From Geobacter sp. AOG2 (GTDB taxonomy: Bacteria > Desulfobacterota > Desulfuromonadia > Geobacterales > Pseudopelobacteraceae): a stretch of DNA of 64,000 nucleotides. A program made the position numbers and the translations under genes. Positions 57,780 through 64,000 of this stretch are shown here, one piece after another. The notes beneath the pieces are model-generated. The model was not told the DNA's origin, did not search any database, and saw only the letters and a program-made list of their open reading frames with translations. Each line of letters opens with the position of its first letter. Position 1 is the stretch's first letter. The stretch spans positions 3,255,574 to 3,319,573 of the forward strand of contig NZ_BLJA01000001.1 of the NCBI RefSeq assembly GCF_019972295.1, read 5' to 3'.

Positions 57780-58169
57780 ATGAAATCAATGGCACGTTTT
57801 GTCACACTGATCACCTGCTGTGCCATACTGGCTTCGGCAGTATCTGCCTTTGCCGGTGATAATGTCTTTCGTGAGGTGTTTGAGGACGGTTTTTACGGCG
57901 GCGCCGCCGGCGCACTGGTGGGAGCCGCGTTGATGGCCTTTACCAAGAAACCTGCAGATCATCTGGATTACATGGGCTACGGAGCCGCTTCCGGTATCCT
58001 GGTCGGTTCCGCCTATGGCTTAGCCAAATCCGCTCACTCCCTGGCGCAGATTGACAAGGGGAGCATCAAGTTCGCCCTTCCCACTGTTCTGCCCGACCTC
58101 GCCGAGTCACCTGCCTCGCACCAGACAAACATCACTTGGCGCGCCGAGTTATTGCGGGGGACCTTCTAA
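57780..58169 (+). CDS. Exported glycine-rich hypothetical protein under a sigma-54 promoter
   Basis: A 129-residue protein with a clear signal peptide (MKSMARFVTLITCCAILASA, cleavage near SAFA-GD). A glycine-zipper-like hydrophobic segment (GGAAGALVGAALMAF, about residues 40-54) follows, with a second Gly-rich segment (YGAASGILVGSAYG). No known family recognised. A GAGGGTGG ribosome site precedes the ATG. It is flanked by a sigma-54 promoter and a strong terminator, so it is a monocistronic unit with dedicated regulation. Confidence 0.75.
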   Translation: MKSMARFVTLITCCAILASAVSAFAGDNVFREVFEDGFYGGAAGALVGAALMAFTKKPADHLDYMGYGAASGILVGSAYGLAKSAHSLAQIDKGSIKFALPTVLPDLAESPASHQTNITWRAELLRGTF

Positions 58170-58208
58170 TAAGAATTTTTCCGCACCGCTTTATAGCAAC
58201 TGAAAACC

Positions 58209-58243
58209 AATGCCTGTTGCAAAATTGCAACAGGCATTTTTTT
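58209..58243 (+). terminator. Intrinsic terminator after the glycine-rich protein gene
   Basis: AATGCCTGTTGC, loop AAAATT, perfect 12-bp complement GCAACAGGCATT followed by TTTTT. Textbook form. Confidence 0.93.
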
Positions 58244-58300
58244 CTTTGCGTCCCCTGGCGGGTTGTGAGTAAATACCACAAAAAAATCAGGGAGGATGTT

Positions 58301-58615
58301 ATGTCGCAGTTCACAAATGTTACGGTAGTTAAAAAGGCCAATATCTATTTCGACGGCAAGGTTGTCAGCAGGACGGTACTGTTCCCCGACGGCAGCAAGA
58401 AGACGCTGGGTGTCATGCAGCCGGGGGATTACGAGTTTTCCACCGGAGCCGCCGAAGAGATGGATATTCTGGCTGGTGAACTGGAATGGCAGTTGAAGGG
58501 TGAAAAGGAATGGAAACGGGTTGCGGCCGGCCAGGCGTTCAACGTGCCCGCCCACTCCACGTTCCTGATGAGGATGGAAACGGTGGTGGATTATTGCTGC
58601 TCTTTCCTGCCGTAG
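58301..58615 (+). CDS. ppnP: Pyrimidine/purine nucleoside phosphorylase PpnP (YaiE)
   Basis: A 104-residue cupin of the PpnP/DUF1255 family, which phosphorolyses many nucleosides to base plus ribose-1-phosphate. KANIYFDGKVVSRTVLFPDGSKKTLGVM, YEFSTGAAEEMDILAGE and AGQAFNVPAHSTF are the family signatures. The ATG at 58301 follows GGGAGGA. Adjacent upp and uraA make a base-salvage context. Confidence 0.93.
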   Translation: MSQFTNVTVVKKANIYFDGKVVSRTVLFPDGSKKTLGVMQPGDYEFSTGAAEEMDILAGELEWQLKGEKEWKRVAAGQAFNVPAHSTFLMRMETVVDYCCSFLP

Positions 58616-58703
58616 CCGGTCTGTACAAACACGAGCGTCCCGTTCGGTGAACTAACCGGACATGTCACTAGACACGGAATCCCCATCTCAAAGGAATCAT
58701 TTC

Positions 58704-59333
58704 ATGAGCGTCCACGAAGTCAATCACCCTCTGGTGAAACATAAGATCGGCCTGATGCGCGAGGCCGGCATCAGCACCAAAAAGTTTCGCGAACTGACGG
58801 CTGAAATCGCCTCCCTTCTCTCCTACGAGGCCTGCCGTGATTTTCCCCTGGAGGGCAAGAGTATCGAGGGGTGGGATGGCAGTGCGGTGCAGATTCAGCA
58901 GATCAAAGGCAAAAAAGTCACCGTGGTGCCTATCCTGCGGGCCGGGATCGGCATGCTCAACGGAGTGTTGGATATGATCCCCAACGCAAAGGTGAGCGTG
59001 GTGGGGCTGGCGCGCAACGAAGAGACTCTGGAGGCTCATACCTATTACGAAAAATTTGTCGGGCGCCTGGATGAACGTCTGGCCTTGATCATTGACCCCA
59101 TGCTGGCCACCGGCGGCTCCCTCGACGCCACCATCGTCATGCTGAAGAAGAACGGCTGCCGACAGATTCGCGTCCTCTCGCTGGTGGCTGCGCCGGAAGG
59201 CCTCGCCCGCATCGCAGAGGCCCATCCCGAGGTGGATATCTATGTGGCGGCCATCGACGAGCGGCTCAACCGCAACGGCTACATCCTGCCCGGGTTGGGG
59301 GATGCCGGCGACAAGATATTCGGCACTAAGTAA
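58704..59333 (+). CDS. upp: Uracil phosphoribosyltransferase
   Basis: A 209-residue PRTase converting uracil plus PRPP to [31 protein letters not shown] starts the protein. [21 protein letters not shown] and the PRPP loop [16 protein letters not shown] follow, and the uracil-binding [17 protein letters not shown] ends it. AAGGA precedes the ATG at 58704. It lies 46 bases upstream of uraA, and the two are likely one operon. Confidence 0.97.
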
Positions 59334-59379
59334 TACGCATCCATCTCTTAATATCCCACCCTTTAAAGGAGCATGCAGC

Positions 59380-60636
59380 ATGCATCTTCCCCCTGAACCG
59401 GTCTGGCGCCAGGCGCTGGCTGGCGCCCAGATCCTCTTCGTGGCCTTCGGCGCTCTGGTGCTGGTGCCAATCCTCACCGGCATGAGCCCAAGTATGGCCC
59501 TTCTGGGCTCCGGCATCGGTACGCTGATTTTTCAGGCTTGCACCAAGCGTAAGGTCCCTATCTATCTCGGATCGTCCTTTGCCTTTATAGCTCCGATCAT
59601 CTACAGTACCCAGACGTGGGGTTTTCCCGCAACACTTTCGGGGCTTTTTGCTGCGGGCTGGCTCTACCTGGCGTTAAGTGCCGTCATCTACCTCAAGGGG
59701 GTCGGGTTCATCCACAGGATCATGCCTCCGGTGGTGGTGGGGCCGATTATCATGATCATCGGCCTGGGGCTGGCCAGCGTAGCGGTCAACATGGCCATGG
59801 GCAAGACCGGCGACGGTAAGGCGGTTTTGGTGGATTACACCACCGCCCTGCTGATAGCGGGCGGCTCCCTGGCGACCACCGCGCTGGTGGCGACCAAGGC
59901 CAAGGGGCTTTTCCGCCTCCTGCCGATCCTCTCCGGCGTGGCGGTAGGGTATTGCCTGTCCGTATCCTTGGGGTTGGTGGATTTCAGCAAGATCGCCGCC
60001 GCCCCCTGGATCGCACTTCCTCACTTGGTGGCACCCCAATGGAACTGGTCTGCGGTGCTGTTCATGATCCCGGTCGCACTGGCCCCGGCCATCGAGCACG
60101 TGGGGGACATCGTTGCTATCGGTGCCGTCACGGGGCGGGACTACACGGAGCACCCCGGTCTGCACCGCACCATGCTGGGCGACGGTTTGGCGGTATGCTG
60201 CGCGGGACTCATCGGTGGACCGCCGGTGACCACTTACGCCGAGGTGACCGGGGCGGTGATGATCACCCGCAACTACAACCCGGTCATCATGACCTGGGCT
60301 GCCTGCTTCGCCATCCTTATGGCGTTTTTCGGTAAGTTCAACGCCATCCTGCAATCCATCCCCGTCCCGGTCATGGGGGGGATCATGATGCTGCTGTTTG
60401 GCAGCATCGCATCAGTTGGCCTTAACACCCTGATCCATGCACGGGTCAACATGCACCGCCCGCGCAATCTGATCATCGTTTCCTTGGTGCTGGTGTTCGG
60501 CATCGGCGGTCTGACGCTCCATCTGGGCGGCGTCAGCCTGCAGGGCGTCAGCCTGTGCGGTATCAGCGCCATCCTGCTGAACCTGATCCTGCCGCGGGAC
60601 AAGGAGCACGAGTCGGAACAGCAGCACGCCTCCTGA
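59380..60636 (+). CDS. uraA: Uracil permease (NCS2/UraA family)
   Basis: A 418-residue nucleobase:cation symporter with ~12-14 helices. LGSSFAFIAPII, MPPVVVGPIIMIIGLGLA, VALAPAIEHVGDIVAIG (acidic substrate site) and LIGGPPVTTYAEVTGAVMITR are NCS2 hallmarks. AAAGGAG precedes the start. Imports uracil for Upp. Confidence 0.95.
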   Translation: MHLPPEPVWRQALAGAQILFVAFGALVLVPILTGMSPSMALLGSGIGTLIFQACTKRKVPIYLGSSFAFIAPIIYSTQTWGFPATLSGLFAAGWLYLALSAVIYLKGVGFIHRIMPPVVVGPIIMIIGLGLASVAVNMAMGKTGDGKAVLVDYTTALLIAGGSLATTALVATKAKGLFRLLPILSGVAVGYCLSVSLGLVDFSKIAAAPWIALPHLVAPQWNWSAVLFMIPVALAPAIEHVGDIVAIGAVTGRDYTEHPGLHRTMLGDGLAVCCAGLIGGPPVTTYAEVTGAVMITRNYNPVIMTWAACFAILMAFFGKFNAILQSIPVPVMGGIMMLLFGSIASVGLNTLIHARVNMHRPRNLIIVSLVLVFGIGGLTLHLGGVSLQGVSLCGISAILLNLILPRDKEHESEQQHAS

Positions 60637-60808
60637 CCGAGGGTGGGCGGCGGGCCGCGGCCTTGAAAAAACGCACTCCGGAGAACCGGTAGCCGTGCCG
60701 TTCGCGGAGGTGGGCATATCTGCTTTTTACTCGCTCGGCCGGAGTGATTTATGTTATGGATCAATCTCTTCTCGTTACTGAATACAGGTGGGACTGCACG
60801 GTGATTGC

Positions 60809-62524
60809 ATGGATGAAATGATCAGTCTGTGTCTTGATCTCTTCGAGCGGTTGGGAATTCTTGTCGTTCTTTTTTTCCTTATGTTGAGATTCGAGTTATT
60901 CCGGCGACTTTTGACCGGTAAGGTAGCCACGGCGAGCAGCCGAGAGAAGCTGTTCCATGCCGTTTATTTCGGGTTGGCAGGCATCATTGCCACCTATTAC
61001 GGCTTCCCGGTACATGGCGCTATCGCCAATCTGCGTACCGTTCCGGTCGTCATCGGCGGTATTCTGGGAGGCCCCCTGGTTGGCCTGTTCGCCGGCATCA
61101 TCGCCGGGGTGCACCGCTATTTCTACGATATAGGCGGGGTGACCTCGCTCTCCTGCGCTATTGCGACACCGCTGGCCGGGGTCGCGGCGGGCCTGCTCTA
61201 CCGCAGACTGCATCGAAAGACATTCGACACGTTACTGGCCTTTTTCATCGGTATCGTGGCCGAGTCGATCAAAATGGGGTTGATTCTGCTTGTGGCACAA
61301 CCTGAGGCTGCGGCTTTAGGCGTGGTACATACCATCGGCCTCCCCAGCATTCTCTCCAACGCCTTCGGCATCGCGGTGCTCGTGGAGGTTCTTGCGTCCG
61401 TGACTCGTGAGCAGGAGCGGGCCGTGGCGCAACAAGCCCAGACAACGCTCAATATCGCCTTCAGAACGTTGCCGTATCTGCGCCACGGCCTGAATCGCGA
61501 GTCGGCTGAGGAGGCGGCGCATATCATCCGGGAGATGACCGGCCTGGATGCGGTATGCCTTTCCAGCGAGAATGAAATCCTGGCCCATGAAGGACTGGAT
61601 GGTGAACTGCATGCGCCGGGTCGGCACACACTGTCTTCTGCCGCGCGGCGCGCCCTTGATACGGGCACGGTGGTCATTGCCTCCACGAAGAGCGATATCG
61701 GCTGTGGGGGGCAGGGGTGCAAGCTCGGCTCGGCAATTGTCGTGCCTCTCAAAAAGTGGGGCAAAACCGTAGGAGTCATGGAGTTGTACCGCCTGAAGGA
61801 GTATGCCATCAGCAGGTTGGACGTGGAGTTGGCCAACGGTCTTGCCCACCTGTTCTCCAACCAACTGGAACTCGGTGAGATCGAGTTCCAGCGTAAGCTG
61901 GTGGCTGAGGCCGAGATCAAGGCGCTTCAAGCCCAAATCAATCCCCACTTTCTGTTCAATGCCATCTCCACCATCATCAGTTATACCCGAACCGACCCGC
62001 AGACCGCCTCCTGTCTGCTGGTGAAGCTGGCCGAGTTTTTTCGCAAGAATATCAACCCAACAGCCAACAAGGTGCCGCTGTCGGTCGAACTGGAGCATTG
62101 CGAGGCCTATATTGCCATCGAAAAAGCCCGGTTCGAGGAGCGGCTCTCCATTGTTTACGATATAGACGAGGAGGCCCTGTCGTGCAACGTTCCTTCGCTG
62201 ATCCTTCAACCGCTGGTGGAGAACGGAGTGCGTCACGGCATTTTACCGAAGGAGGGTGGCGGTGTGATCCGTATCGGAGCCAGAAAGACCGACAACGGCA
62301 TCATCATCTCTGTCAAGGATAACGGTGTCGGCATATCCCGGGAGCGTATCCAAAGTCTCCTGTCGGAGGCGGCGTTGCCTCATGCGGGCGCGGGGCTGGG
62401 GCTGGCGCTCAAGAACGTCAACAGCCGCCTGGCGACCCTGTATGGTAGCGACAAAGGGTTGAAGATCGAGAGTGAACCGGGCGAGGGCACCACGGTCCAT
62501 TTCTGTGTACCGGTGGGCGCATGA
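60809..62524 (+). CDS. LytS/BtsS-type membrane sensor histidine kinase
   Basis: A 571-residue kinase. Residues ~1-190 form a 5TMR_LYT membrane sensor (GGPLVGLFAGIIAGVHRYFYD). A GAF-like domain (~215-345) follows, with a CGGQGC motif. The LytS-type kinase core has QAQINPHFLFNAISTI with the phospho-His near 381, LVENGVRHGI as the N box and DNGVGI plus GAGLGLALKN in the ATPase. LytS-class kinases sense small metabolites such as pyruvate or act in autolysis control. The stop overlaps the next gene (ATGA). A GTG at 60788 is an alternative start. Confidence 0.92.
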   Translation: MDEMISLCLDLFERLGILVVLFFLMLRFELFRRLLTGKVATASSREKLFHAVYFGLAGIIATYYGFPVHGAIANLRTVPVVIGGILGGPLVGLFAGIIAGVHRYFYDIGGVTSLSCAIATPLAGVAAGLLYRRLHRKTFDTLLAFFIGIVAESIKMGLILLVAQPEAAALGVVHTIGLPSILSNAFGIAVLVEVLASVTREQERAVAQQAQTTLNIAFRTLPYLRHGLNRESAEEAAHIIREMTGLDAVCLSSENEILAHEGLDGELHAPGRHTLSSAARRALDTGTVVIASTKSDIGCGGQGCKLGSAIVVPLKKWGKTVGVMELYRLKEYAISRLDVELANGLAHLFSNQLELGEIEFQRKLVAEAEIKALQAQINPHFLFNAISTIISYTRTDPQTASCLLVKLAEFFRKNINPTANKVPLSVELEHCEAYIAIEKARFEERLSIVYDIDEEALSCNVPSLILQPLVENGVRHGILPKEGGGVIRIGARKTDNGIIISVKDNGVGISRERIQSLLSEAALPHAGAGLGLALKNVNSRLATLYGSDKGLKIESEPGEGTTVHFCVPVGA

Positions 62525-63291
62525 CCATTACGGTATTTATCATCGACGATGAGGCGCCGGCCCGCCGGGAGTTGCGCTACCTGCTTGAACAGGTGGGGGA
62601 TGTGGACATTCTGGGGGAGGCGTCCAACCCTTCCCAGGGAGTGCAGGGTATTCGCGAAACCAAGCCGCAGTTGGTGTTTCTGGACATCCAACTACCCGGC
62701 TTGAGCGGGATAGAATTGGCCCAGGTGATAAGGGCGCTGCCCGACAAGCCGCTGGTCGTCTTCGCCACCGCGTTCGAGCGGTTTGCCGTCCAGGCCTTTA
62801 ACGTGGATGCCTTCGATTACATCCTCAAGCCATTCACCTTGGAGCGGGTGGCCAGGTCCATTCATAAGGCTGGGAAAACCCTTTGCACAGAGGTGAAGGC
62901 AAAAGTATCCGTAGCCCCCCCGGAGATGCCCCATGGTCTTGACAGGCCCGACATTAAGCGGATTTTGGTGCACCGGGGGGGGAAGATGATCCCCATACCT
63001 CCCGAAAGCATCGTTTTTATCCGCGCCGCGGAAGGGGAAACCCTGATCCACACGGCGGATGGCCTCTTTTCCTCGAAAAACACCCTCAACACCCTGGAAA
63101 GCGTCCTGGGCCCCTACTCCTTCGTCCGGGTCCACCGCAACTCGCTGGTCAACCTGAACTGTATCGTTGAGATCATCCCCTGGTTCAACGGCAGTTGCAA
63201 ACTGATCATGAACGACAGTTGCAGTAGCGAGGTACTGGTCAGTAGGTACAATGCCAAGGACCTGAAACACCGCCTTATTTTAGGTAAATAG
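62521..63291 (+). CDS. LytTR-family response regulator
   Basis: A 256-residue regulator. The receiver domain has DDEAPARREL and the acceptor Asp55 in LVFLDIQLPGLSG. The C-terminal LytTR DNA-binding domain (~145-250) shows IVFIRAAEGETLIHTADG, SFVRVHRNSLVNL and LVSRYNAKDLKHRL. It forms a pair with the overlapping LytS-type kinase. LytTR proteins bind direct repeats about 21 bp apart, and three such repeats lie just downstream before the next gene. Confidence 0.95.
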   Translation: MTITVFIIDDEAPARRELRYLLEQVGDVDILGEASNPSQGVQGIRETKPQLVFLDIQLPGLSGIELAQVIRALPDKPLVVFATAFERFAVQAFNVDAFDYILKPFTLERVARSIHKAGKTLCTEVKAKVSVAPPEMPHGLDRPDIKRILVHRGGKMIPIPPESIVFIRAAEGETLIHTADGLFSSKNTLNTLESVLGPYSFVRVHRNSLVNLNCIVEIIPWFNGSCKLIMNDSCSSEVLVSRYNAKDLKHRLILGK

Positions 63292-63336
63292 CAGCTTCTC
63301 TCCCTCGGTTTTGTTCTACTGCCTGGAACACAGGAC

Positions 63337-63395
63337 CATTCAGCGGGGATTTCTGTCATTCATCCCTCATTTTGCGCCATTCACCATAATTGACT
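63337..63395 (+). promoter_or_regulatory. Candidate LytTR binding array and -35 element
   Basis: CATTCAGC at 63337, CATTCATC at 63357 and CATTCACC at 63378 are direct repeats spaced 20 and 21 bp. TTGACT follows at 63390-63395 as a possible -35 box; the -10 is weak (TATCGA-like). Spacing fits LytTR/BtsR sites on one face of the helix. Confidence 0.5.
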
Positions 63396-63498
63396 TATCC
63401 ATAACACCGCTATCGAGTATCGTCGCAGGCAATAAGGCGATTGTTGGGGGAACGGCCATGGGCCGGGACTCCGTCACCACAAATCGAAGGAGGCTGTT

Positions 63499-64000
63499 AT
63501 GTATGAAGGGTTGATCGAATCCGCAGAACAGGAAAGCACAGGGGTAAGTCGCCGTAATTTCATCAAAACAGCGGCAGTGGTAGGGGCCAGTGTGCTGGCG
63601 GTGCAGGCAGTTGGCCGCACCGAGGCCCACGCGGCAGAAGATGCGAAGAAGGAAGCCAAGGCGGCCTCGGCAGCCGCTGCCGGCGGCGGTGCCAAGAAGC
63701 TTTCCGACGTGCTTAAGGTCGCCCGCGAAAAGATGTATCCACGCTGCCGCGTCTGTCCCGAGTGCGACGGGGTTGCCTGTTCCGGTGAGGTGCCGGGCAT
63801 GGGCGGGATCGATTCGGGCAAGGCCTTCAGGAATAATCTCCAGGCCCTTGCCAAATACGACCTGAACATGCGCACCTTCCACGACGTGAAAAAACCGGAT
63901 ACGAGCCTGACCCTGTTCGGCGCCACGCTGTCCATGCCGATCCTTTCCGGCATAACCGGGGGCGTGACCTATAATATGGGATTGGGAGGCAAAGTCAGCG
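63499..64000 (+). CDS. Tat-signal FMN-dependent alpha-hydroxy-acid dehydrogenase (3' end cut by window edge)
   Basis: 167 codons are visible. The N-terminus has a twin-arginine signal: SRRNFIK at residues 17-23, hydrophobic TAAVVGASVLAVQAVG and cleavage near AHA-AE, followed by an Ala/Lys/Gly linker. From about residue 70 the sequence matches FMN alpha-hydroxy-acid oxidising proteins of the anaerobe type: MYPRCRVCPECDGVACSGE, VPGMGGIDSGKAF and LFGATLSMPILSGITGG. AAGGAGG precedes the ATG. The FMN and catalytic His regions lie beyond the edge. Export is inferred from the signal. Confidence 0.82.
   Translation, partial: MYEGLIESAEQESTGVSRRNFIKTAAVVGASVLAVQAVGRTEAHAAEDAKKEAKAASAAAAGGGAKKLSDVLKVAREKMYPRCRVCPECDGVACSGEVPGMGGIDSGKAFRNNLQALAKYDLNMRTFHDVKKPDTSLTLFGATLSMPILSGITGGVTYNMGLGGKVS

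Follow-up and report, generated by a model that had tools for sequence, protein, structure and literature searches.

A phased triple repeat as the predicted LytR operator ahead of a Tat-signal dehydrogenase gene in Geobacter sp. AOG2

The lytSR-dehydrogenase locus

The window analysed here, a 64,000-nucleotide stretch of the Geobacter sp. AOG2 genome, ends with a two-component gene pair followed by a flavoenzyme gene, all on the forward strand. The sensor histidine kinase gene lytS (60788-62524; Pfam 5TM-5TMR_LYT, GAF, His_kinase and HATPase_c) likely has its true start at ATG 60809, judging by the alignment, and is overlapped by 4 bp by the response regulator gene lytR (62521-63291; receiver PF00072 and LytTR PF04397). 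With 5TM-5TMR_LYT, GAF and His_kinase in one protein, receiver and LytTR in the other, and every Pfam score above its cut-off, the pair has the composition of a LytS/LytTR two-component system. LytS is 36% identical to the Escherichia coli pyruvate sensor PyrS/YpdA and 33% to a second such sensor, BtsS, and LytR 31-32% identical to PyrR/YpdB and BtsR; LytR scores below the NCBI BtsR equivalog model NF008677 (153.4 bits against a cut-off of 246). Directly upstream of lytS, at 58136-60636, stands a cluster of a PpnP-type nucleoside phosphorylase, a uracil phosphoribosyltransferase and a xanthine/uracil permease.

Downstream of lytR, the window holds the 5' part (63499-64000, forward strand) of a gene for a Tat-signal FMN-dependent alpha-hydroxy-acid dehydrogenase, preceded by a ribosome-binding site AAGGAGG at 63487-63493 (+) whose AAGGAG is invariant in the ten-region alignment described below. 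Read from the genome, the gene runs on to G000:C1:3320292 (L003:3573-4793) and encodes 406 aa with an FMN_dh match (PF01070, 2.6e-63) and a TAT_signal. Lys281, His305 and Arg308 are invariant across 10 orthologues and were matched to catalytic residues in oxidase sequences, so the protein combines the FMN_dh domain with the catalytic Lys, His and Arg of FMN-dependent alpha-hydroxy-acid dehydrogenases and oxidases. It matches lactate dehydrogenase and lactate oxidase models weakly, below the NCBI cut-offs (155.6 against 376 for NF008398; 117 against 645 for TIGR02708). A Cys-rich stretch after the Tat signal, CRVCPECDGVAC (residues 83-96; L003:3819-3860), is invariant in the dehydrogenase and missing from the aligned parts of known glycolate and lactate oxidases.

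The repeat array and its conservation

Three CATTCA cores lie on the forward strand at 63337-63342, 63357-63362 and 63378-63383, spaced 20 and then 21 bp, exactly where the initial annotation had reported them and, as it had also said, between the LytTR gene and the FMN_dh/Tat gene. As heptamers they read CCATTCA (63336-63342), TCATTCA (63356-63362; CCATTCA in most relatives) and CCATTCA (63377-63383; CCATTCG in most genus members), all three kept in relatives. Direct repeats in a 20-21 bp phase are typical of LytTR regulators, and the array conforms to the usual description of a LytTR operator, at least two such repeats at intervals of some 20-22 bp by a regulated promoter. Within the window the pattern CATTCA-N14/15-CATTCA-N14/15-CATTCA has a single match, none of 100 dinucleotide shuffles has any, and lone CATTCA is not enriched (25 found, 34 expected). 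Across the 3.92-Mb genome, CATTC pairs at array spacing number 13, against 4 for a reversed control, and CATTC triples occupy only two sites, the lytR-dehydrogenase gap and G000:C1:3109458-3109505. The nucleoside cluster at 58136-60636 was searched for a CATTCA array and has none. An Rfam search gave no match up to E = 1, on which a structured RNA or riboswitch was dropped as an explanation, and a terminator scan between lytR and the dehydrogenase gene found none.

Of the 57 genomes searched, 18 have a LytR homologue, counting that of the window. A CCATTC(A/G) triple lies within the 400 bp after lytR in all 15 LytR orthologues that are at least 48% identical (Geobacter-like), scoring 18-21 of 21, a level that no more than 1 of 300 shuffles attains. 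The triple is also present in a sixteenth genome, G021, on a contig that holds only the end of lytR; beside two LytR homologues of 35% identity the triple is absent. The dehydrogenase itself has orthologues in 10 of the 57 genomes and stands directly behind LytR and the array in all ten. The initial annotation's proposal of a LytTR-type operator hung in part on conservation of the repeats in relatives of the same synteny, and it is supported by this linkage to the adjacent LytR and the dehydrogenase promoter: the array is found in nine of nine relatives sharing the gene order. This linkage assigns a predicted regulator to an unstudied periplasmic flavoenzyme of Geobacter-like bacteria.

In the alignment of ten lytR-dehydrogenase intergenic regions, mean column identity is 92% in the repeats, 68% in the spacers within the array and 58% in the remaining intergenic region. 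The Mann-Whitney p-values for repeats against spacers (2e-5) and for repeats against the rest (2e-11) overstate independence because the aligned sequences are related and the genomes are non-independent observations, but the repeat-spacer contrast is an internal one. In the window's genus and two others the spacing is 20+21; two more relatives have 21+20, and the cstA and chemoreceptor promoters discussed below have 21+21. Helical phase is thus retained despite indels, and the 20+21 and 21+20 lineages differ by a compensated spacing change. Two relatives, G020 and G025, have a weak third repeat; in G020 the automatic search picked another register, and the alignment shows its triple matching that of G025.

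Setting aside 7-bp satellites, triple arrays with at most one mismatch are confined to LytR-bearing genomes. The satellites are tandem (CCATTCA)n tracts at several sites in G004, G036, G039 and G047 (without LytR), which mimic the motif in a 7-bp phase. None of the 80 LytTR loci listed from other phyla, with no Geobacter-like locus among them, has a CCATTCA triple scoring at least 19 of 21, and cstA lies near three of these 80, none with a clear CCATTCA array. The array travels with LytSR rather than with any neighbouring gene, be it for the dehydrogenase, a CstA-type transporter or an ABC transporter protein. Comparative evidence of this kind makes the three repeats the predicted, and almost certain, binding site of the neighbouring LytR.

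Promoter architecture

A promoter scan found no consensus sigma-70 site in this region. The TTGACT at 63390-63395, which the initial annotation had noted at the end of the repeats, is present but varies in relatives (TTACCT, TTGCCT, TTCTCT, TTCAGT, TTCTGC), and it was dropped as a -35 element. Conserved instead are a poor -35-like TTATCC at 63395-63400 (+; TTACCC or TTTCCC in relatives) and a predicted -10 element, TATCGT, at 63418-63423 (+), which lies 17 bp past TTATCC and 34 bp past repeat 3. These promoter coordinates rest on sequence comparison, the -10 element on a spacing profile over 20 promoters. In that profile the best -10-like placement falls exactly 34 bp after the repeat-3 heptamer, with a mean score of 2.88 against an averaged shuffle maximum of 1.63, and none of 2000 shuffles reaches 2.88. 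The 34-bp distance holds at the dehydrogenase, the chemoreceptor, two cstA promoters and E. coli yhjX; at two other cstA promoters it is 33 bp, and the -10 match at E. coli btsT, 35 bp away, is poor.

Between the end of the array and the -35-like element lie 11 bp. If transcription starts near 63430, repeat 3 would occupy about -53 to -47, with its centre near -50. A poor -35 element with an operator just upstream suggests activation, and LytR bound to an array whose end is some 47 bp from the putative start, just above that poor element, would be expected to recruit RNA polymerase. The fixed repeat phase together with the fixed distance to the -10 element amounts to a precise, testable model of LytTR activation.

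Other genes downstream of the array

The second perfect CATTC triple in the genome, at G000:C1:3109458-3109505, lies about 80 bp ahead of a chemoreceptor gene (HAMP and MCPsignal), and array and gene are kept together in three further genus members (four in all). The gene in this locus (G000:C1:3109458-3111173, L037) encodes a short uncharacterised sensory region. We regard the product as a candidate receptor for the LytS ligand. Dehydrogenase and chemoreceptor share a predicted operator, and therefore one signal may control both the enzyme and swimming.

Elsewhere the neighbour changes. In five relatives LytSR and the array stand before a CstA-type transporter gene; of 22 cstA genes checked, the array accompanies all five that adjoin LytSR and is absent from the other 17, which score at best 17 of 21. 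This genome carries no CstA-family gene, the target type of E. coli BtsS/BtsR, which those five relatives do have behind LytSR. In G029 (L066), LytSR and the array precede a gene for a branched-chain-type ABC substrate-binding protein rather than a dehydrogenase or cstA. Because regulator and operator stay constant while the target varies between dehydrogenase, CstA, ABC binding protein and chemoreceptor, both the signal of the family and the function of the LytTR operator become directly testable.

A looser scan for repeat pairs across the genus returned largely chance matches and 7-bp satellites, with no convincing extra target beyond the following RcoM-type site. The genome's only other LytTR gene encodes a PAS-LytTR, RcoM-like protein (G000:C1:2966511-2966847, L004) and stands directly before a CO dehydrogenase (cooS-like) gene; between the two genes lie ACCATTCA and GCCTTTCA, 21 bp apart, as they also do in the sister species G001. 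Control of cooS by RcoM has been proposed for G. sulfurreducens (PMC4703632), and ACCATTCA/GCCTTTCA may be a new candidate RcoM-type operator.

Signal, mechanism and alternatives

Working from the observed array, its conservation, its linkage to LytR, the promoter geometry and the second target, we infer binding, activation, ligand and enzyme substrate as follows: very probably, LytSR operates the array, phosphorylated LytR activates the dehydrogenase gene, the chemoreceptor is controlled as well, and the ligand is pyruvate or a close relative. The membrane sensor LytS, of BtsS/YpdA type, would detect an extracellular small carboxylate, most likely one of these, and would phosphorylate LytR. 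Monomers of phosphorylated LytR would then occupy two or three of the CCATTC(A/G) half-sites, which at a spacing of 20-21 bp (two helical turns) share one face of the helix, and from there would bring RNA polymerase to the TTATCC/TATCGT promoter of the periplasmic dehydrogenase. In this genus the same operator would also control a methyl-accepting chemotaxis receptor. The sites might plausibly fill sequentially and cooperatively, as those of YpdB do, though with one site more.

BtsS contacts pyruvate through Arg72, Arg99, Cys110 and Ser113, and an S113A substitution abolished btsT induction in E. coli (PMC10653868). At these positions the alignment gives Arg, Arg, Cys and Ala in the window's LytS; three of the four contact residues are kept, and the full BtsS pyruvate site is not reproduced, Ser113 being replaced by Ala. 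All 15 LytS orthologues have Ala, or in one case Gly, at the Ser113 position, with Arg, Arg and Cys kept wherever the sequence covers them. Because LytS resembles the BtsS family and keeps Arg, Arg and Cys, a small carboxylate is its likely ligand; pyruvate is our default guess, by analogy.

The alternative that survives best, which we rate as unlikely if far from negligible, accepts the array as a LytR operator and has LytS sense an alpha-hydroxy acid, such as lactate, glycolate or a similar substrate of the enzyme, in place of pyruvate, in line with the lactate-like signal of the initial annotation. The adjacent target does belong to the FMN_dh family and has the catalytic Lys, His and Arg, the Ala or Gly at the Ser113 position may alter specificity, and the authors of the BtsS work themselves suggest that lactate binding could be designed into the site (PMC10653868). 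However, LytS proteins whose array precedes a CstA-type transporter gene have the same Arg, Arg, Cys, Ala pocket, and members of that transporter family carry pyruvate in E. coli (PMC7730263); the enzyme, moreover, falls far under the cut-offs of the lactate dehydrogenase and oxidase models.

It is distinctly improbable that LytR represses from the array or mainly regulates something besides the dehydrogenase. CoxC does repress from a triple direct-repeat LytTR operator, one that overlaps the -35 box, but the published generalisation is that LytTR regulators bound upstream of -35 activate (PMC11347149), and the present array stops 11 bp short of the poor -35-like element, as at activated promoters. 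The distance from array to -10 element is, moreover, fixed relative to the dehydrogenase, chemoreceptor and other downstream genes. Very improbable, in turn, is that a different DNA-binding protein reads the repeats and that LytSR just happens to lie beside them: the array follows LytSR across dehydrogenase, cstA and ABC-transporter neighbours, non-satellite triples with at most one mismatch all belong to LytR-bearing genomes, and the direct-repeat phase is a LytTR hallmark. Chance repetition without function, conceivable in that the repeats are merely 6-7 bp long, has next to no standing given the shuffles, the conservation test, the recurrence at four kinds of promoter and, decisive in practice, conservation across 16 genomes.

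Comparison with known LytTR systems

Most LytS/LytTR sensors of small carboxylates have been described as regulating transporters. The circuit type is familiar, and the predicted chemoreceptor target, with a dehydrogenase in place of a transporter, is a variation on it.

RcoM1 and CoxC provide a precedent for the operator form, a LytTR domain reading three direct repeats about two helical turns apart (PMC11347149). They differ in being one-component CO sensors (PAS-heme or MHYT) with repeats of the form TTCNNGCA/TTNNNGCN as against CCATTC(A/G); the present regulator is a receiver-LytTR protein without the CO-sensing PAS or MHYT domain, and an RcoM-type operator was dropped as a reading since TTCNNGCA does not fit the repeats. 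A parallel in gene layout is the LytR-type regulator DVU0596 of Desulfovibrio vulgaris, which was mapped experimentally to cstA genes lying behind its own HK-RR operon (PMC3333781), the same regulator-then-cstA order as in our five relatives. D. vulgaris is a distant organism, and kdp is an extra target there; the likeness is one of gene layout.

E. coli BtsS/BtsR shares with LytSR the domain layout of sensor and regulator as well as Arg72, Arg99 and Cys110, but identity is just 33% and 32%, Ser113 is Ala in LytS, and BtsR targets a pyruvate transporter where we find an enzyme and a chemoreceptor. The BtsR repeat motif, ACC(G/A)CT(C/T)A, differs from the CCATTC(A/G) of the present array. The btsT region nevertheless has BtsR-like repeats GCCGCTCA, ACCGCTTA and ACCACTCA at 20 and 21 bp, the phase of the present array; searched with the CCATTCA consensus, this triple is insignificant (41 of 300 shuffles). 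PyrS/PyrR (YpdA/YpdB) includes the sensor closest by identity (36%), and a PWFN segment is common to the LytTR domains. The published yhjX site has two repeats, a core with an extra T and an MFS transporter target, and GGCATTTCAT repeats before a yhjX-type MFS gene are not what we find here, where CCATTC(A/G) precedes an FMN_dh gene.

YpdB binds as monomers to a tandem pair of sites, one after the other and cooperatively (PMC4847170), and the btsT and yhjX repeats were taken from the oligonucleotides published with that work. In those oligonucleotides we see one repeat-like element more than the two published sites, in a phase of about 20-21 bp, at both btsT (L104) and yhjX (L105), a reading that is ours rather than that of the authors (PMC4847170). 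At yhjX the element would be TCATTCAT, located ahead of the pair of known YpdB sites; together with the two GGCATTTCAT it lies near a 21-bp phase, and a -10-like TATGGT follows 34 bp past the last repeat. The shared geometry suggests a second look at both E. coli promoters. We can go further only tentatively, to a picture that we think somewhat doubtful as a whole: a LytS-type receptor with an altered pocket (Ser to Ala) and a three-site operator may govern a small regulon of a periplasmic dehydrogenase and a dedicated chemoreceptor, one external acid setting its own oxidation and taxis, and this LytS/LytTR family may have in common three operator sites at 20-21 bp and a -10 element fixed 34 bp downstream, with btsT and yhjX of E. 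coli each including a third site so far unrecognised.
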